Assembly: GCF_002135435.1 (NCBI RefSeq)
Contig: NZ_NEGK01000015.1
Location: 1 to 64,000 of the forward strand
Length of the DNA stretch: 64,000 nucleotides
Source: Acinetobacter sp. ANC 3813
GTDB taxonomy: Bacteria; Pseudomonadota; Gammaproteobacteria; Pseudomonadales; Moraxellaceae
Direction: 5' to 3'
Position numbers and translations under genes: made by a program. Under the pieces are notes generated by a model. It had not been told where the DNA came from, searched no databases, and saw only the letters and a list, made by a program, of their open reading frames with translations. Shown piece by piece: positions 45,494-50,511 of this stretch (position 1 is the first letter of the stretch; every line of letters starts with the position of its first letter).

Positions 45494-45606
45494 ACAAAAC
45501 CTGCGAAAAATCTTACATAAGTTTGATAGAATACCCGCTGAATCTGCCAAGGTGTAGCGCTTGAGCAGGTGAGTTTCATAATCGGCTGTAATTATTGGAA
45601 AAAATT

Positions 45607-46365
45607 ATGCTTGCTAAACGTATTATTCCTTGCCTCGACGTCGACAACGGCCGAGTAGTGAAAGGTGTTCAATTTCTTGACATCCGTGATGCAGGCGATC
45701 CAGTAGAAGTAGCGCGCCGTTATAATGAGCAAGGCGCCGATGAAATCACCTTCTTAGACATCACAGCAACCTCAAGCGGCCGCGATACCACTTACCGCAC
45801 CGTTGAACGCATGGCGGAATCGGTTTTTGTCCCGCTGACTGTGGGCGGCGGCGTGCGTAAAGTCGAAGATATCCGCTTATTGCTGAATGCAGGCGCAGAT
45901 AAGGTCAGCATTAACTCGGCAGCGATTTATAATCCTGAATTTGTTCAGGAAGCGTCACAGCGTTTTGGCGCGCAGTGCATTGTGGTCGCGATTGATGCGA
46001 AAAAAACCGGCGACAACAAATGGGAAATCTTCACCCATGGCGGCCGCAAAGAAACAGGGATTGACGCCATTGAATGGGCCGTCAAAATGGCGGAATTTGG
46101 CGCAGGCGAATTGCTGGTCACATCTATGGATGCTGACGGCACCAAAGCGGGCTATGACCTTGAGCTGATGCGCAACATCAATGACCGCGTAACCATCCCG
46201 ACCATTGCCTCTGGCGGCGTAGGCAACTTACAGCATTTGGCAGACGGCATTTTAAAAGGCGGCGCAGATGCGGTTCTGGCGGCGTCTATTTTCCACTTTG
46301 GCCAATACACCATTCCAGAAGCAAAAAAATATCTTGCAGACCAAGGTATTGAAATGCGCCTGTAA
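45607..46365 (+). CDS. hisF: Imidazole glycerol phosphate synthase cyclase subunit
   Basis: HisF cyclises PRFAR with ammonia from HisH to give imidazoleglycerol phosphate and AICAR. The 252-aa TIM barrel has catalytic Asp in [14 protein letters not shown] and VVAIDAKK, and phosphate loops VGGGVR and ASGGVG. The start at ATG 45607 has GGAA upstream; the in-frame TTG 45595 is less likely. It is a single-gene unit ending in a UUCG-loop terminator. Confidence 0.97.
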
Positions 46366-46394
46366 ATGGCAGTAGCATTAAAAAATTGATTACC

Positions 46395-46418
46395 AAGAGC
46401 GCTTCGGCGCTCTTTTTT
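46395..46418 (+). terminator. Terminator after hisF
   Basis: AAGAGCGC ttcg GCGCTCTTTTTT, with a stable UUCG tetraloop. Confidence 0.9.
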
Positions 46419-46472
46419 GATTTTAGGGCAAAATAATATTCAGCAAAGTCAACATATAATAAGACCAATAAA

Positions 46473-46874
46473 ATGCATATTTTAAGAGTCCAAATGCCGC
46501 TCTCTTCAAAAAAAATATTCGAATTTGTCATTCTTGCCGTCATGGGGACTGCACTTTATATTGGAGTCACTTTGTACCGTGACTCCAATTATGAAAAAGC
46601 CGTACAGTCTCCAAATCAAATTCATCATTGCGGCAAATTTCTTGAGCGCACCAAAGTCGTACATGAGCTTTTTGGTGGTTCGGATCAAGTTGAATATCTT
46701 TATACCTTTGCAGATGAACTCGGTGTTTCATACAGCTTTACGGGGAGCAGACAAGTCATTAAACACCTTCCACGATTAACGAGCTTGCAGCCCAAACAGC
46801 CTATTTGTTTTCAATACACGCCTACTGCTCAAGATCGAAATGGACTATTCGCTACACTGACTAAAATTGAATAG
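46473..46874 (+). CDS. Small membrane-anchored protein, paralogue A
   Basis: The 133-aa protein has one N-terminal helix (about residues 14-35) and a small extracytoplasmic domain with two Cys: HHCGKFLERTKVV and PICFQYTP. It is 3 nt upstream of a gene encoding a related domain (same Cys spacing, same LP..(T/I)(S/T)L..(K/N)Q.(I/Y)C pattern). Alternative start ATG 46494. Function is unknown. Confidence 0.65.
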   Translation: MHILRVQMPLSSKKIFEFVILAVMGTALYIGVTLYRDSNYEKAVQSPNQIHHCGKFLERTKVVHELFGGSDQVEYLYTFADELGVSYSFTGSRQVIKHLPRLTSLQPKQPICFQYTPTAQDRNGLFATLTKIE

Positions 46875-46877
46875 AAC

Positions 46878-47333
46878 ATGTATTTAGACACCGCGTTATT
46901 TGTCATCGCCTTCTGTAGCCTAATCGTATTTGGCCTGCTGGCTTATGTATTAAAAATCAAGCAAGAAACGCAGGGCATCATGGTCATAATGATGTTTTTT
47001 GGCTATCTGTATGCTTATCTCTTCGGGCTGAATCTATATCGTGAAATGCGCTATCAAAAAGCGCTGGATTCACATCAGCAGCAGAGCCAATGTGCTAAAT
47101 TCATTAGGCATGTTCAATTTAATCACGGCAGGAAAGGATCCTATGAAACTGCCTATCAATTTCAAACCGGCCAATCCCAATTTATTGAATTTAATGGCGG
47201 CTTGCCTGCATTAAATCATGTTCCGCAAATCACGCAGCTAAAGCAAAACCAACGCTACTGTTTGCGCTATGCAGCAGATATTACAGACTGGAATGGGCGC
47301 TGGATGATAACAGCCCTTCAAGCAGAGTCATAA
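46878..47333 (+). CDS. Small membrane-anchored protein, paralogue B
   Basis: The 151-aa protein has two N-terminal helices (about 5-26 and 33-53) and an extracytoplasmic domain with QCAKFIRHVQF and PQITQLKQNQRYCLRYAADI, clearly related to the protein just upstream. The two form a tandem pair, almost certainly co-transcribed. Function is unknown. Confidence 0.65.
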   Translation: MYLDTALFVIAFCSLIVFGLLAYVLKIKQETQGIMVIMMFFGYLYAYLFGLNLYREMRYQKALDSHQQQSQCAKFIRHVQFNHGRKGSYETAYQFQTGQSQFIEFNGGLPALNHVPQITQLKQNQRYCLRYAADITDWNGRWMITALQAES

Positions 47334-47370
47334 AACTCATTCGGACAATACTGAACAAATGCAGCAGGCA

Positions 47371-47395
47371 AAAAAAAGGAGTCCGCAGGACTCCT
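47371..47395 (-). terminator. Minus-strand terminator downstream of the desaturase
   Basis: AGGAGTCC tgc GGACTCCT followed by TTTTTT on the minus strand. It ends either a long desaturase 3' untranslated region or the short transcript proposed from 47484. Confidence 0.8.
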
Positions 47396-47484
47396 ATAAA
47401 CCAAGAAATTACAGCGCTCGGTTATTTTTAAATGACCAGTGAAATATACAGCAGTTTATCGAAAGCCATTGGGCAGCTTCGATA
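47371..47484 (-). ncRNA. Candidate short transcript with a 13-codon ORF
   Basis: A TATGCT (47490-47495) sits at the same distance from the three-half-site element as the TATAGT of the desaturase promoter. A start near 47484 and the terminator at 47371 would give about 110 nt. It contains ATG at 47469 to TAA at 47428 (MAFDKLLYISLVI), with only a weak ribosome site. This is a prediction with no homologue known to me. Confidence 0.3.
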
Positions 47485-47516
47485 CTCACAGCATAAACAA
47501 TGCGTTCTGTAAAATA

Positions 47517-47555
47517 TTGACAATCGAATAACGAATTATTGACAATACACGACAA
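47517..47555. promoter_or_regulatory. AraC-type phased element, copy A
   Basis: TTGACAAT (47517), TTGACAA (47539, 22 bp later) and ACGACAA (47549, a further 10 bp). The same three elements at the same distances occur at 48246-48284. It lies just beyond the 3' end of the desaturase gene. Confidence 0.5.
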
Positions 47556-47575
47556 AACAGCAGCAAAAAAAATGC

Positions 47576-48193
47576 CTAAGCCATTACATTTTCTATATTT
47601 TTCACTTTATTTTCAACCCAATTTGCGGGACGGAAACGATTGACTGCGCTATTCAAAATATCGGATAAAACAGGCGGCAAAGCAATGCCGAGCGGATTGC
47701 GCTCTTGAAGTTCTGGCGATGAAATCACCCGCGTGCCCATCACATAATCAAACCAAGGCTTGGTCACACACCAGTTGGCATCCTGATTGGAATTCATATG
47801 ATGATCGTAGTGCCAAGGAATTTTTTTGCGTGCCCACTCTGGCTCTAAATGCGCGCGGCGGTGAATATAATAATAGTTGCCCGCTGCATAAAACACCGCC
47901 AAGCTCATGCCTTTGGAAACCGGATAAAACAGCGGCGCAAAGACACCGACAGCCACAGCCAAAGACAATACTTCATTTTGCGTACGCCAGTTTTTTAGAC
48001 CTTCCACATAGCCGAAATCTTCAAAATTGGTTTTGCGCACCTCACGGTGATGCTCCCAATGCGATTTCATATTGCTGGGCGATGGACTCCAGCGCGACTT
48101 TCCTGCCCGATGCGTGCCATGCAGAATATACTTATGCGCCACCCATTCAAATGCATTGGCAACCACTAAGCCTGCAATAAAACCCTTTAACAT
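47576..48193 (-). CDS. Membrane fatty acid hydroxylase/desaturase-type protein
   Basis: The 205-aa protein has the histidine clusters of the sterol desaturase/fatty acid hydroxylase superfamily: HKYILH (20-25), HWEHH (45-49), HRRAH and HYDHH. These bind a di-iron centre at the membrane. Three or so hydrophobic helices fit an integral membrane enzyme. GAGGGAG precedes ATG 48193; the frame continues to 48220. The substrate is unknown. It is divergent from an AraC regulator and probably controlled by it through the element at 48246. Confidence 0.83.
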   Translation of the reverse strand: MLKGFIAGLVVANAFEWVAHKYILHGTHRAGKSRWSPSPSNMKSHWEHHREVRKTNFEDFGYVEGLKNWRTQNEVLSLAVAVGVFAPLFYPVSKGMSLAVFYAAGNYYYIHRRAHLEPEWARKKIPWHYDHHMNSNQDANWCVTKPWFDYVMGTRVISSPELQERNPLGIALPPVLSDILNSAVNRFRPANWVENKVKNIENVMA

Positions 48194-48218
48194 GCGATTT
48201 TCTCCCTCTATTAAGGGC

Positions 48219-48284
48219 ACTATAGAGAATGTAAAAGACTAGATATTGACCGATTTTTTAAATATCATTGACAAATTACGACAA
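48219..48284 (-). promoter_or_regulatory. Desaturase promoter with AraC-type element, copy B
   Basis: On the minus strand -10 TATAGT (48219-48224) has no good -35. Instead the nearest half-site of the three-part element (TTGACC 48246, TTGACAA 48268, ACGACAA 48278 on the plus strand) overlaps the -35 position. This is the geometry of class II activation by AraC proteins. The element also covers the region just before the regulator gene's own start. Confidence 0.5.
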
Positions 48285-48301
48285 TACTCAAAAAACAAAA
48301 A

Positions 48302-49309
48302 ATGCAGCAGTTAAAGAATTACACTGGATCCGTCTATGGCGGGCTGGGCCATTTGCTCTATGCTTTTTATACGGCTCAAGGACTAGCGATCCCTGAACAG
48401 CTGGAACGCATTCAAAATTTAGAGCGCTTTGATTACATCATTTGGCGCAACCTTTTAATGACCTTAGATAACCAGCTGCAGCGCCCAGCGCTGGGTTTAG
48501 AAATTGCAGAATATGTCCAGCCTAAACATCTTGGCATTATTGCCTATATTGCCATGTCCTGTGAAAATTTAGGCGAGGCGCTGCACCGCTATCACGATTT
48601 TCATCGGCTGGTATATGACGGCTCGCCTTTGCAGGTCCATGCACAAGATGATGTGCTGTGCATCCGCTGGTCAGACCTGCCAAAAAATATGGCCACACAG
48701 CTGACGGATGAAGTTGCCATAGCCATTATGGTGGGTTTTTTAAAGCATTTTATGGACTTTAGAGACATTAGCCTGCATGAAGTGCATTTTCAAAATCCAG
48801 CACCCAAGCATGTCGCGCTGTATGAACAATACTTCCGCTGCAAAGTACGTTTTTCCCAGCCCTGTTCGCAAGTGCTGATGCCCATTCAAGAGCTGTCTAA
48901 ACCTTTTTTGCAAGGCGATCAGACCTTGCAGATGCTGCTGACCCAGCAGGCCAATTCGCTCTTGGAAAAACTGCCCAACACCACACAAACCGATCAGCGC
49001 CTGCAACAGGCGATTTTATCGGGTTTGCAGAAAAACTTATTTCAAATTGAACATGTTGCCAGCCAGCTGAATATTTCTGTACGGCAGCTGCAGCGTCATT
49101 TGCAGCAGCAAGGCACGTCTTATCAGCAGCGTATGCAGGAAATCCGCTGCATGATGGCGGAAGAATATTTGCGCGACCCGCATCTGAGCCTGCATGAAAT
49201 TTCGCTGCTGCTGGGCTATTCAGAACAAAGCGCTTTTCAGCGCGCCTTTAAACAATGGCAGCAGCAGACCCCGCAGCAATGGCGGCAGCGCAATCTGCAG
49301 TCGGGTTAA
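48302..49309 (+). CDS. AraC-family transcriptional regulator
   Basis: The 335-aa protein has an N-terminal ligand-binding domain of the OruR/ArcR-like type (about 20-200). A C-terminal double helix-turn-helix follows (about 230-330; HVASQLNISVRQLQRHLQQQ, then LSLHEISLLLGYSEQSAFQRAFKQW, the AraC signature). No ribosome site is obvious before ATG 48302. Divergence from the desaturase gene and the repeated half-sites suggest it activates that gene in response to an unknown ligand, possibly a lipid. Confidence 0.88.
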   Translation: MQQLKNYTGSVYGGLGHLLYAFYTAQGLAIPEQLERIQNLERFDYIIWRNLLMTLDNQLQRPALGLEIAEYVQPKHLGIIAYIAMSCENLGEALHRYHDFHRLVYDGSPLQVHAQDDVLCIRWSDLPKNMATQLTDEVAIAIMVGFLKHFMDFRDISLHEVHFQNPAPKHVALYEQYFRCKVRFSQPCSQVLMPIQELSKPFLQGDQTLQMLLTQQANSLLEKLPNTTQTDQRLQQAILSGLQKNLFQIEHVASQLNISVRQLQRHLQQQGTSYQQRMQEIRCMMAEEYLRDPHLSLHEISLLLGYSEQSAFQRAFKQWQQQTPQQWRQRNLQSG

Positions 49310-49417
49310 CTTTATTTACTATAATGCTCTTGTTTTGAACAATTATTCATCATAAAAGTTTAAAAGTTAATTTTCTTACCTAAAACAACAGCTAAAAATA
49401 ACATTACTGGAGCATTT

Positions 49418-50104
49418 ATGAATAAATACATTGCAGAACTTATCGGTACATTTTGGCTCGTCTTTGGCGGCTGCGGCAGCGCAGTACTGGCGGCGGCTTT
49501 TCCTGAACTCGGCATTGGTTTTGCGGGCGTATCGCTGGCTTTCGGTTTAACGGTACTTACTGGAGCTTATGCGCTGGGCCATATTTCAGGCGGACATTTC
49601 AACCCTGCTGTCAGCATTGGCTTATGGGCAGGCGGACGCTTCGGCAGCAAAGACCTCGTTCCTTATATTATTTCCCAAGTGATTGGCGCGACACTGGCCG
49701 CTTGGGTGCTGTATTTAATTTTCAGCGGACAGGCAGGTTTCAGCGGTACGGGCGGTTTTGCCACAAACGGCTTTGCAGAACTATCTCCGGGCAAGTATTC
49801 CATGATGTCTGCATTGATTATTGAGGTCGTGCTGACCGCCATGTTCCTCATCATCATTATGGGCGCGACAGATAAACGGGCGCCTGCGGGCTTTGCGCCA
49901 ATCGCCATTGGTTTGGCTTTAACCTTGATCCACTTAATCAGTATTCCAGTGACCAATACCTCTGTAAACCCTGCGCGAAGCACAGGTGTAGCCTTCTTTG
50001 CAGAAACGGCTGCGCTAAGCCAATTGTGGCTGTTCTGGGTTGCGCCAATTGTTGGTGCAGTCATTGGTGCTGTGATTTATAAATTTACCGCCAAAGAAGA
50101 ATAA
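49418..50104 (+). CDS. aqpZ: Aquaporin Z
   Basis: The 228-aa water channel has six helices and both NPA boxes, [11 protein letters not shown] (about 62-72) and [13 protein letters not shown] (about 186-198). The opening [25 protein letters not shown] matches AqpZ. TGGAG lies upstream of the ATG. Confidence 0.95.
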
Positions 50105-50143
50105 GCATACCTTCAGACGCATTGCATTCATGCACTGAACAAT

Positions 50144-50176
50144 AAAAAAAAGCGCCATGGATTGCGCTTTTTTTTT
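50144..50176. terminator. Terminator after aqpZ (bidirectional)
   Basis: A7-GCGC/GCGC-T9 with an 8-nt loop. Confidence 0.8.
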
Positions 50177-50205
50177 ATTGACTCATCACGGGCTTTAAAC
50201 ACCGT

Positions 50206-50451
50206 TCAAAGAAACGGGTTTTCAACTTCGCCGCTTTGCTCACGCTCTACCGCTTCGGGCAAGTCCGCAGTATTTTCTAAAGCTGTCACCACATCATTGA
50301 GCAAAGCCTGCAGCGCTTTCGCCGCTTTTAAACCCGCCTGATCTTTGGTCAGCTGTAAATTGCCAGACAGACTGACGCAGTCCGTGTCATTTTCTACGGT
50401 TAAATCATGGATGGCATGTGATTCCGTGCCGTTTTCATAAGGCTTAAACAT
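50206..50451 (-). CDS. Small acidic hypothetical protein
   Basis: The 81-aa product starts MFKPYENGTESHAIHDL, has a predicted helix around KDQAGLKAAKALQALLNDVVTAL, and an acidic C-terminus. The codon pattern supports a real gene. No domain is recognised. The longer frame to 50496 begins in AT/GC-mixed non-coding sequence and lacks a site. Confidence 0.6.
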   Translation of the reverse strand: MFKPYENGTESHAIHDLTVENDTDCVSLSGNLQLTKDQAGLKAAKALQALLNDVVTALENTADLPEAVEREQSGEVENPFL

Positions 50452-50511
50452 GGTTTTCTCTGGTCTTGTTGTTATCAAATGAGGGGGTCCCCTCATCCTA
50501 ATGCATGCACA

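Follow-up and report, generated by a model that had tools for sequence, protein, structure and literature searches.

A predicted two-promoter regulon of an AraC-family protein in Acinetobacter, comprising a desaturase-family gene and a putative small RNA

In Acinetobacter sp. ANC 3813, the stretch of 64,000 nucleotides analysed here (the window) contains two divergently oriented genes, designated des and araC. The des gene (47576..48193, minus strand) codes for a protein of 205 amino acids from the fatty-acid-hydroxylase/sterol-desaturase family; it matched PF04116 with an E-value of 7.2e-07 and 30.1 bits, just below the cut-off of 31, and a homologue bears the name 'sterol desaturase family protein'. 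The araC gene (48302..49309, plus strand) codes for a regulator of 335 amino acids, which was assigned to the AraC family by its N-terminal match to PF12625 (Arabinose_bd, 105.3 bits, cut-off 27.6) and its C-terminal match to PF12833 (HTH_18, 66.8 bits, cut-off 33.6). Against the NCBIfam equivalogs QhpR and GliR, the protein scored 197.3 and 197 bits, respectively, below their cut-offs of 250 and 570 bits. It is 89% identical to the AraC proteins of the A. bouvetii and A. pragensis loci L004 and L015. Two adjoining small genes on the plus strand (46473-46874 and 46878-47333) are located between hisF and the small RNA described below; their products have hydrophobic N-terminal parts and look alike by eye, with no match in Pfam or NCBIfam.

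An element with the pattern TTGAC-N17-TTGACAA-N3-ACGACAA, in which the half-sites are placed at 0, 22 and 32 bp (steps of 22 and 10 bp), is present twice in the window as an exact match. Copy A (47517..47555, plus strand) has its half-sites at 47517, 47539 and 47549, and copy B (48246..48284, plus strand), located between the divergent des and araC genes, has them at 48246, 48268 and 48278. The coordinates and the two steps had been given for both copies in a sequence-only reading of the window, and they were matched exactly. It had also been argued there that equal geometry in two places speaks against chance, and this was borne out, since no element was found in 100 dinucleotide shuffles of the window, and a scan of the whole genome identified copies A and B as the only matches, with none for the reversed pattern. 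A chance repeat was consequently rejected as an explanation, the reversed control being empty in all 175 Acinetobacter genomes.

Judged by the information per position over the named loci, the element can also be understood as two AraC-type sites in tandem, separated by two helical turns, in place of three half-sites. The distal site would have both of its boxes (TTGACAA and ACGACAA, at a distance of 10 bp), and in the promoter-proximal site the TTGAC box is the only one conserved. In A. tandoii (L025) and in genome G159 (L148), from which copy A and the RNA are gone, copy B is shorter by 22 bp between its two TTGAC boxes when compared to L050, so that a single TTGACAA...ACGACAA unit remains near the promoter. 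A loss of 22 bp is what would be expected of an element consisting of a single AraC site repeated in tandem.

For the -10 regions, the offset was measured from the G of the proximal GTCAA, and nine offsets were scored against TATAAT. At copy B, the mean match peaks at offset 26 with 4.68 of 6 (73 unique sequences, next-best 2.86), and at copy A it peaks at the same offset with 4.02 of 6 (59 unique sequences, next-best 2.90). The predicted -10 of des, TATAGT (48219..48224, minus strand), was already named in the earlier reading, and its distance to the proximal GTCAA of copy B is 26 bp. The corresponding -10 at copy A, TATGCT (47490..47495, minus strand), also 26 bp from its proximal GTCAA, was absent from that reading; with 4 of 6 positions, it is weak in the window. 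The class II-like geometry proposed earlier is thus supported on the sequence level by the step of 22 bp and the best -10 offset of 26 bp at both copies. Tandem direct repeats, a proximal box over the -35 region and a fixed distance to the -10, which define a class II AraC-type promoter, are all predicted here. The proximal TTGAC is preceded by a flank of the sequence GCTAGAT or GCTAAAT, which is conserved at copy B and not at copy A, with 0.55-1.29 bits at copy B versus 0.03-0.38 bits at copy A (reversed positions 43-47). This flank could be the -10 of araC, and the araC start would then be located inside the element, so that AraC bound at copy B would activate des and repress araC.

Copy A had been described as lying beyond des without an annotated gene to control, and an overlooked second target had been proposed. 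It is correct that no gene is annotated there; however, a predicted small RNA gene, likewise unannotated, follows copy A, and the nature of the target, a non-coding RNA on the minus strand and not a protein gene, had been missed. A conserved RNA with a terminator behind copy A makes it very probable that an overlooked second target exists, and this target is predicted to be a conserved small non-coding RNA encoded on the minus strand. Copy A would accordingly act leftward, as a tandem AraC-type site in the promoter of the small RNA. The predicted RNA comprises about 114 nt (47370..47483, minus strand), with its start deduced from the -10 and its end given by the U tract of the terminator. The intrinsic terminator (47370..47395, minus strand) consists of a stem of eight pairs (47395-47377) followed by a T run, and probably serves the des mRNA as well. 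Upstream of it, a stem-loop 2 is predicted at 47399..47423 (minus strand), in which an AACCGAG/CTTGGTT stem presents a CGCUGUAAUUU loop.

Among the 59 unique copy-A loci, the T run was chosen by rule as the first one with a good hairpin, and a hairpin of -8.6 kcal/mol or better was identified in all 59; the predicted RNA length ranges from 61 to 148 nt with a median of 115. The 3' part of the RNA is conserved, with a majority sequence over 36 loci of approximately ACCAAG-CGCUGUAGUUUU-CUUGGU-UUAUAGG-GAGUC...GACUCC-U8, and the GCUGU loop of stem-loop 2 is near-invariant. The covariance model R1, the alignment of which includes the window sequence, matched the window at 47443-47370 with 72.1 bits (E-value of 7.5e-10 genome-wide). 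A known RNA family was rejected, since a search of 45500-50500 against Rfam gave no match at 47370-47555 even at an E-value of 1 or below. No ORF common to the genus was identified, the longest ATG frame in the 59 predicted RNAs ranging from 0 to 30 codons. With a predicted promoter of its own, an intrinsic terminator, a length within 50-300 nt and no conserved ORF, the RNA has the sequence features of a trans-acting small RNA.

The stem enclosing the loop was better than shuffles, with a mean z of 1.97 for 50 sequences and of 1.70 by 26 stem types; 12 sequences of the second clade and L039, which has no anchor, were omitted from this test. The stem varies in sequence yet tends to keep its pairing, for example CAAGAAA/TTTCTTG versus TAAGAAA/TTTCTTA. 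Several stem types were no better than shuffles (L019, L023, L043, L060, L066, L080 and L144). For the folding of the stem-loop 2 window, a mean z of -0.68 was obtained in the main set and of -1.15 in the second clade. Stem-loop 2 rests on the comparison of stems to shuffles, since the automatic consensus fold recovers the terminator and not this stem-loop. Without the terminator, the folding stability of the RNA is hardly above that of shuffles (mean z of -0.13 for 42 sequences and of -0.53 for 12 second-clade sequences), so that the RNA is defined by its promoter, loop, terminator and conservation, and not by overall stability.

The element was searched for in related genomes, as had been suggested in the sequence-only reading, by means of a pattern scan. 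With the relaxed pattern TTGAC-N17-TTGACMA-N3-RCGACA, it was identified in 130 of 175 Acinetobacter genomes, with 0 of 175 for the reversed control, and in none of 173 genomes from other genera of the family. Orthologs of araC were separated at a gap in the E-values, with 143 genomes at 1.5e-91 or below and 32 genomes, counted as devoid of the ortholog, at 7.7e-51 or worse. The element is present in 130 of the 143 genomes with an araC ortholog and in 0 of the 32 without; as these genomes belong to one genus, such counts of presence and absence are not independent events. This co-occurrence, in addition to the shared best -10 offset of both copies, supports the earlier proposal that both sites are read by a single regulator, namely the neighbouring AraC protein. 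The 13 araC-bearing genomes devoid of an exact element are G007, G024, G038, G065, G087, G088, G090, G119, G134, G142, G151, G159 and G169. Three of them were inspected; copy A has one mismatch in G087 and two in G119, and G159 contains the shortened copy B.

The des gene was found in 143 of 175 genomes at an E-value of 1e-30 or below, in 142 of them together with the araC ortholog; the exception, G100, has no exact element. As named loci with the des gene, the best 80 of 162 matches were fetched, in which up to four mismatches in 19 scored positions were allowed for the element. Here, copy B was found in 75 loci and copy A in 53, and the spacing, the loss of which in related species had been named as evidence against the proposal, is kept across the genus. 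With both strands of the 80 loci counted, a single other match was found, on the minus strand and overlapping the copy-B region of L062. Among the matches listed, each matching genome contains the element once or twice, except for G084, which contains four in two loci; these two loci carry one of each RNA type. In G031, one of the two elements listed is located away from araC. This extra exact element (L145:2482; G031:C4:1246481) lies 206 bp upstream of a gene for an alpha/beta-hydrolase and is oriented towards it. The hydrolase is apparently secreted and lipase-like, and its gene is a possible third target in this one species. Together with des, it gives a hint of a lipid-related regulon, the signal of which is probably lipid-related, too.

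The RNA itself was followed with two covariance models. R1, built from 36 sequences and used with filters that lose some weak matches, found the RNA in 73 of 175 genomes, with one match each. In the clade containing A. vivianii, the RNA has diverged and has a different hairpin and terminator; this version is covered by R2, built from 12 sequences of this second clade. R2 matched 32 of 175 genomes, 30 of them strongly at an E-value of 3.4e-12 or better; the two weak matches, in G009 and G080, both without an araC ortholog, are probably due to chance. Among the 143 araC-bearing genomes, the RNA was identified in 101 (72 by R1 and 30 by R2, with G084 found by both). Apart from the weak R2 matches, a single R1 match, in G047, was obtained among the 32 genomes without the ortholog. 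Across the 80 named loci, R1 gave 47 matches and R2 gave 12, without overlap. All 53 copy-A loci contain an R1 or R2 match, a result which is partly circular, because part of these loci had gone into building the models. The 27 loci without copy A gave six R1 matches, of which four are weak at 32-42 bits.

In a number of lineages, parts of the system are missing. Genome G087 is without des and, in the stretch read, without copy B, and it keeps araC, a copy A with one mismatch and the RNA, with araC facing copy A and the RNA directly. In the loci of the A. baumannii complex and its close relatives (L021, L022, L026-L029, L034 and L042) and of A. baylyi (L072), des, araC and copy B are kept and copy A is absent, and none of these nine loci gave an R1 or R2 match. 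Between the des stop and the adjacent hisF, neither such an element nor the RNA is present in L021, L034 and L072. Four A. baumannii records (L180-L183) contain an exact copy B and, in the des-araC stretches searched, neither copy A nor an R1 or R2 match. Since the loci of the ACB complex and of A. baylyi keep araC, des and copy B without the RNA, the RNA is dispensable. L065, labelled A. baumannii ACIN00150 and the only record with this species label among the 80 loci, was matched by R1 at 53.2 bits, and its copy A is degenerate, with five mismatches. Its AraC protein is 59% identical to that of the window, compared to 65-66% for L180-L183, which are in this respect like L021, L034 and L042; L065 is possibly another species under the A. 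baumannii label. The records of L180, L182 and L183 (NZ_CP064203.1, NZ_CP077849.1 and NZ_CP104448.1) are filed as A. baumannii plasmids and have a chromosome-like size of 3.7-4.1 Mb. In G104 (L087), the RNA core directly follows des without a copy A. G047 has no araC ortholog, des or element, and an RNA-like core is present there behind a TATAAT, so that this RNA may be decoupled from AraC; the diverged core is located near hisF (L143:2532-2609).

It is very likely that the two promoters form the regulon of one AraC-family activator, made up of des and a non-coding RNA of about 114 nt, and the araC product is the probable activator of both. The element, its geometry, its conservation, the terminator, the RNA core and the co-occurrence with araC were read from the sequence; binding of the AraC protein, activation, the transcript ends, the base-pairing role and the signal are what we infer. 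In the presence of a signal, presumably a lipid-related one, the AraC protein would bind to the tandem sites with the proximal box over the -35 region, and would activate two leftward promoters which have a -10 and no consensus -35. From copy B, the protein would drive des and probably also repress araC, which is transcribed divergently. Copy A is located within the 3' untranslated region of des, and from there the protein would drive the RNA that ends at the intrinsic terminator. The des transcript probably reaches the same terminator and would hence include the RNA sequence, too. In the predicted layout, the RNA consists of a variable 5' hairpin, a middle stem with the conserved GCUGU loop and the terminator, and it probably base-pairs with mRNAs through this loop, perhaps with Hfq. 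A fuller reading, which we regard as tentative and rather doubtful, is that the AraC regulon has the small RNA as its core output and not as an accessory. If this was true, a lipid-sensing AraC protein would add post-transcriptional silencing to a lipid-modifying enzyme, with the enzyme being losable and the regulator and the RNA staying, as in G087, and the A. baumannii and A. baylyi lineages would have rewired the same response through the loss of the RNA.

Other readings of the locus have to be weighed against this regulon. The RNA might be real and mainly processed from the des mRNA as a small RNA derived from the 3' untranslated region, with copy A only boosting it. In favour of such processing, the sole terminator-like site found beyond des on this strand (47300-48330) is the RNA's own, and L087 contains the core without copy A; it is still unlikely, since copy A was found in 53 of the 59 named loci with an R1 or R2 match, with the -10 at a fixed offset, and since G087 retains copy A and the RNA without des. 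Copy A might also be an auxiliary AraC site that affects des through looping or blocking; the RNA would then be nothing else than the des terminator region. The -10 with its offset of 26 bp, which copy B shares, the loop sequence conserved beyond the needs of a terminator, and G087, in which araC, copy A and the RNA are kept without des and copy B, make this quite improbable, although copy A is located between the des stop and the likely des terminator and the core of L087 directly follows des without a copy A.

That a regulator other than the adjacent AraC protein reads the elements is conceivable insofar as binding is predicted from the sequence, and would nevertheless be surprising, because no exact site was found in any of the 32 genomes lacking the ortholog or in the 173 genomes of other genera in the family, and the element is located within the regulator's own intergenic region. 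It is hardly credible that copy A drives a small protein gene. The RNA of the window contains an ATG frame of 13 codons; however, the peptides agree among close relatives, or where a frame happens to run over the conserved core, and not between clades, and this candidate was rejected, since no frame is common to the genus among the 59 predicted RNAs.

For the predicted RNA of the regulon, targets were searched for in two ways. Duplex energies of the loop region with the start regions of eight locus genes, calculated with the second clade omitted, gave nothing convincing, with mean z values from -0.83 (araC) to +0.61 (hisF). The loop complement AAATTACAGCG was present at 69 places in five related genomes versus 35 for a reversed control; this excess is hard to interpret, since the control does not keep dinucleotides and some of the 69 places are the RNA genes themselves. 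Loci were available for 30 of the 69 places, and a single one of these 30, in L152, is close to where an ORF of at least 80 codons begins; this ORF is overlapped by a longer antisense ORF. Pairs of AAATTACAGCG places recurring between genomes fall inside ORFs, in sense or antisense. No target of the RNA was found by the duplex energies for the eight locus genes or by the seed search in the five genomes.

The arrangement has several known counterparts. At araI1-I2 of E. coli, a class II site, tandem direct repeats lie at a distance of about two helical turns, and the proximal box extends over the -35. The tandem repeats and the proximal box overlapping the -35 are alike here, and the differences are the spacing of 22 bp, the single conserved box of the proximal site and the binding, which is predicted. 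In the SgrR-SgrS and OxyR-OxyS systems, a transcription activator is encoded beside the small RNA under its control. Here, the activator gene also adjoins the small RNA that it would control; in contrast, the regulator belongs to the AraC family and the RNA is located in the 3' untranslated region of des; a divergent arrangement of regulator and RNA is seen in G087 alone.

Among open-licence papers in PubMed Central, the nearest precedent would be ToxT-TarB. For ToxT of Vibrio cholerae, an AraC-family protein, direct repeats of its box were described before the gene for the small RNA TarB, which has a terminator at its 3' end, and binding of ToxT at TarB was supported by gel shift (PMC3136459). 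Both systems share an activator of the AraC family, direct repeats in front of the gene for a small RNA, and an intrinsic terminator that closes this RNA. They differ in regulator, RNA, genus and gene neighbours; in Acinetobacter, binding of AraC is predicted, the genes for the regulator and the RNA are near each other, and a lipid-type enzyme is the partner target. In Acinetobacter, a small RNA designated Aar was described as being about 100 nt long in A. baumannii, restricted to this genus, with conserved 3' hairpins and a variable 5' end, and as being present in A. baumannii and A. baylyi (PMC11472050). By this description, Aar resembles the predicted RNA in its length, its restriction to Acinetobacter, its conserved 3' hairpins and its variable 5' end. 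The two RNAs are probably distinct, since Aar is set apart by its described presence in these species, and R1 and R2 found nothing in L072 or in the des-araC stretches of the four A. baumannii records. The main text of the Aar paper (PMC11472050) contains none of the terms 'hisF', 'AraC' and 'desaturase'.

Among the titles and opening parts of abstracts of open-licence papers in PubMed Central, no description of the locus, the regulator or the RNA was found, and no paper in this collection combines 'Acinetobacter', 'sterol desaturase' and 'AraC family'. Judged by sequence, the small RNA family and the AraC regulon appear to be new, both being of a known kind. A conserved unannotated small RNA thereby gains a likely regulator and a promoter logic, and the regulon of an uncharacterised AraC protein becomes testable with few constructs. 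As far as the literature was covered, Acinetobacter small RNAs were surveyed mostly in A. baumannii, and this RNA is absent from the four A. baumannii records checked. Natural experiments are offered by the absence of des, the absence of the RNA, its decoupling and its carriage on a plasmid. In A. schindleri, the whole module of araC, des, both elements (L179:3764 and L179:4559) and an R2-type RNA (L179:3627-3730) is located on plasmid NZ_CP030755.1 (locus L179, 83007-91516). This plasmid of 223 kb was typed as mobilizable, and IS elements flank the module on both sides.
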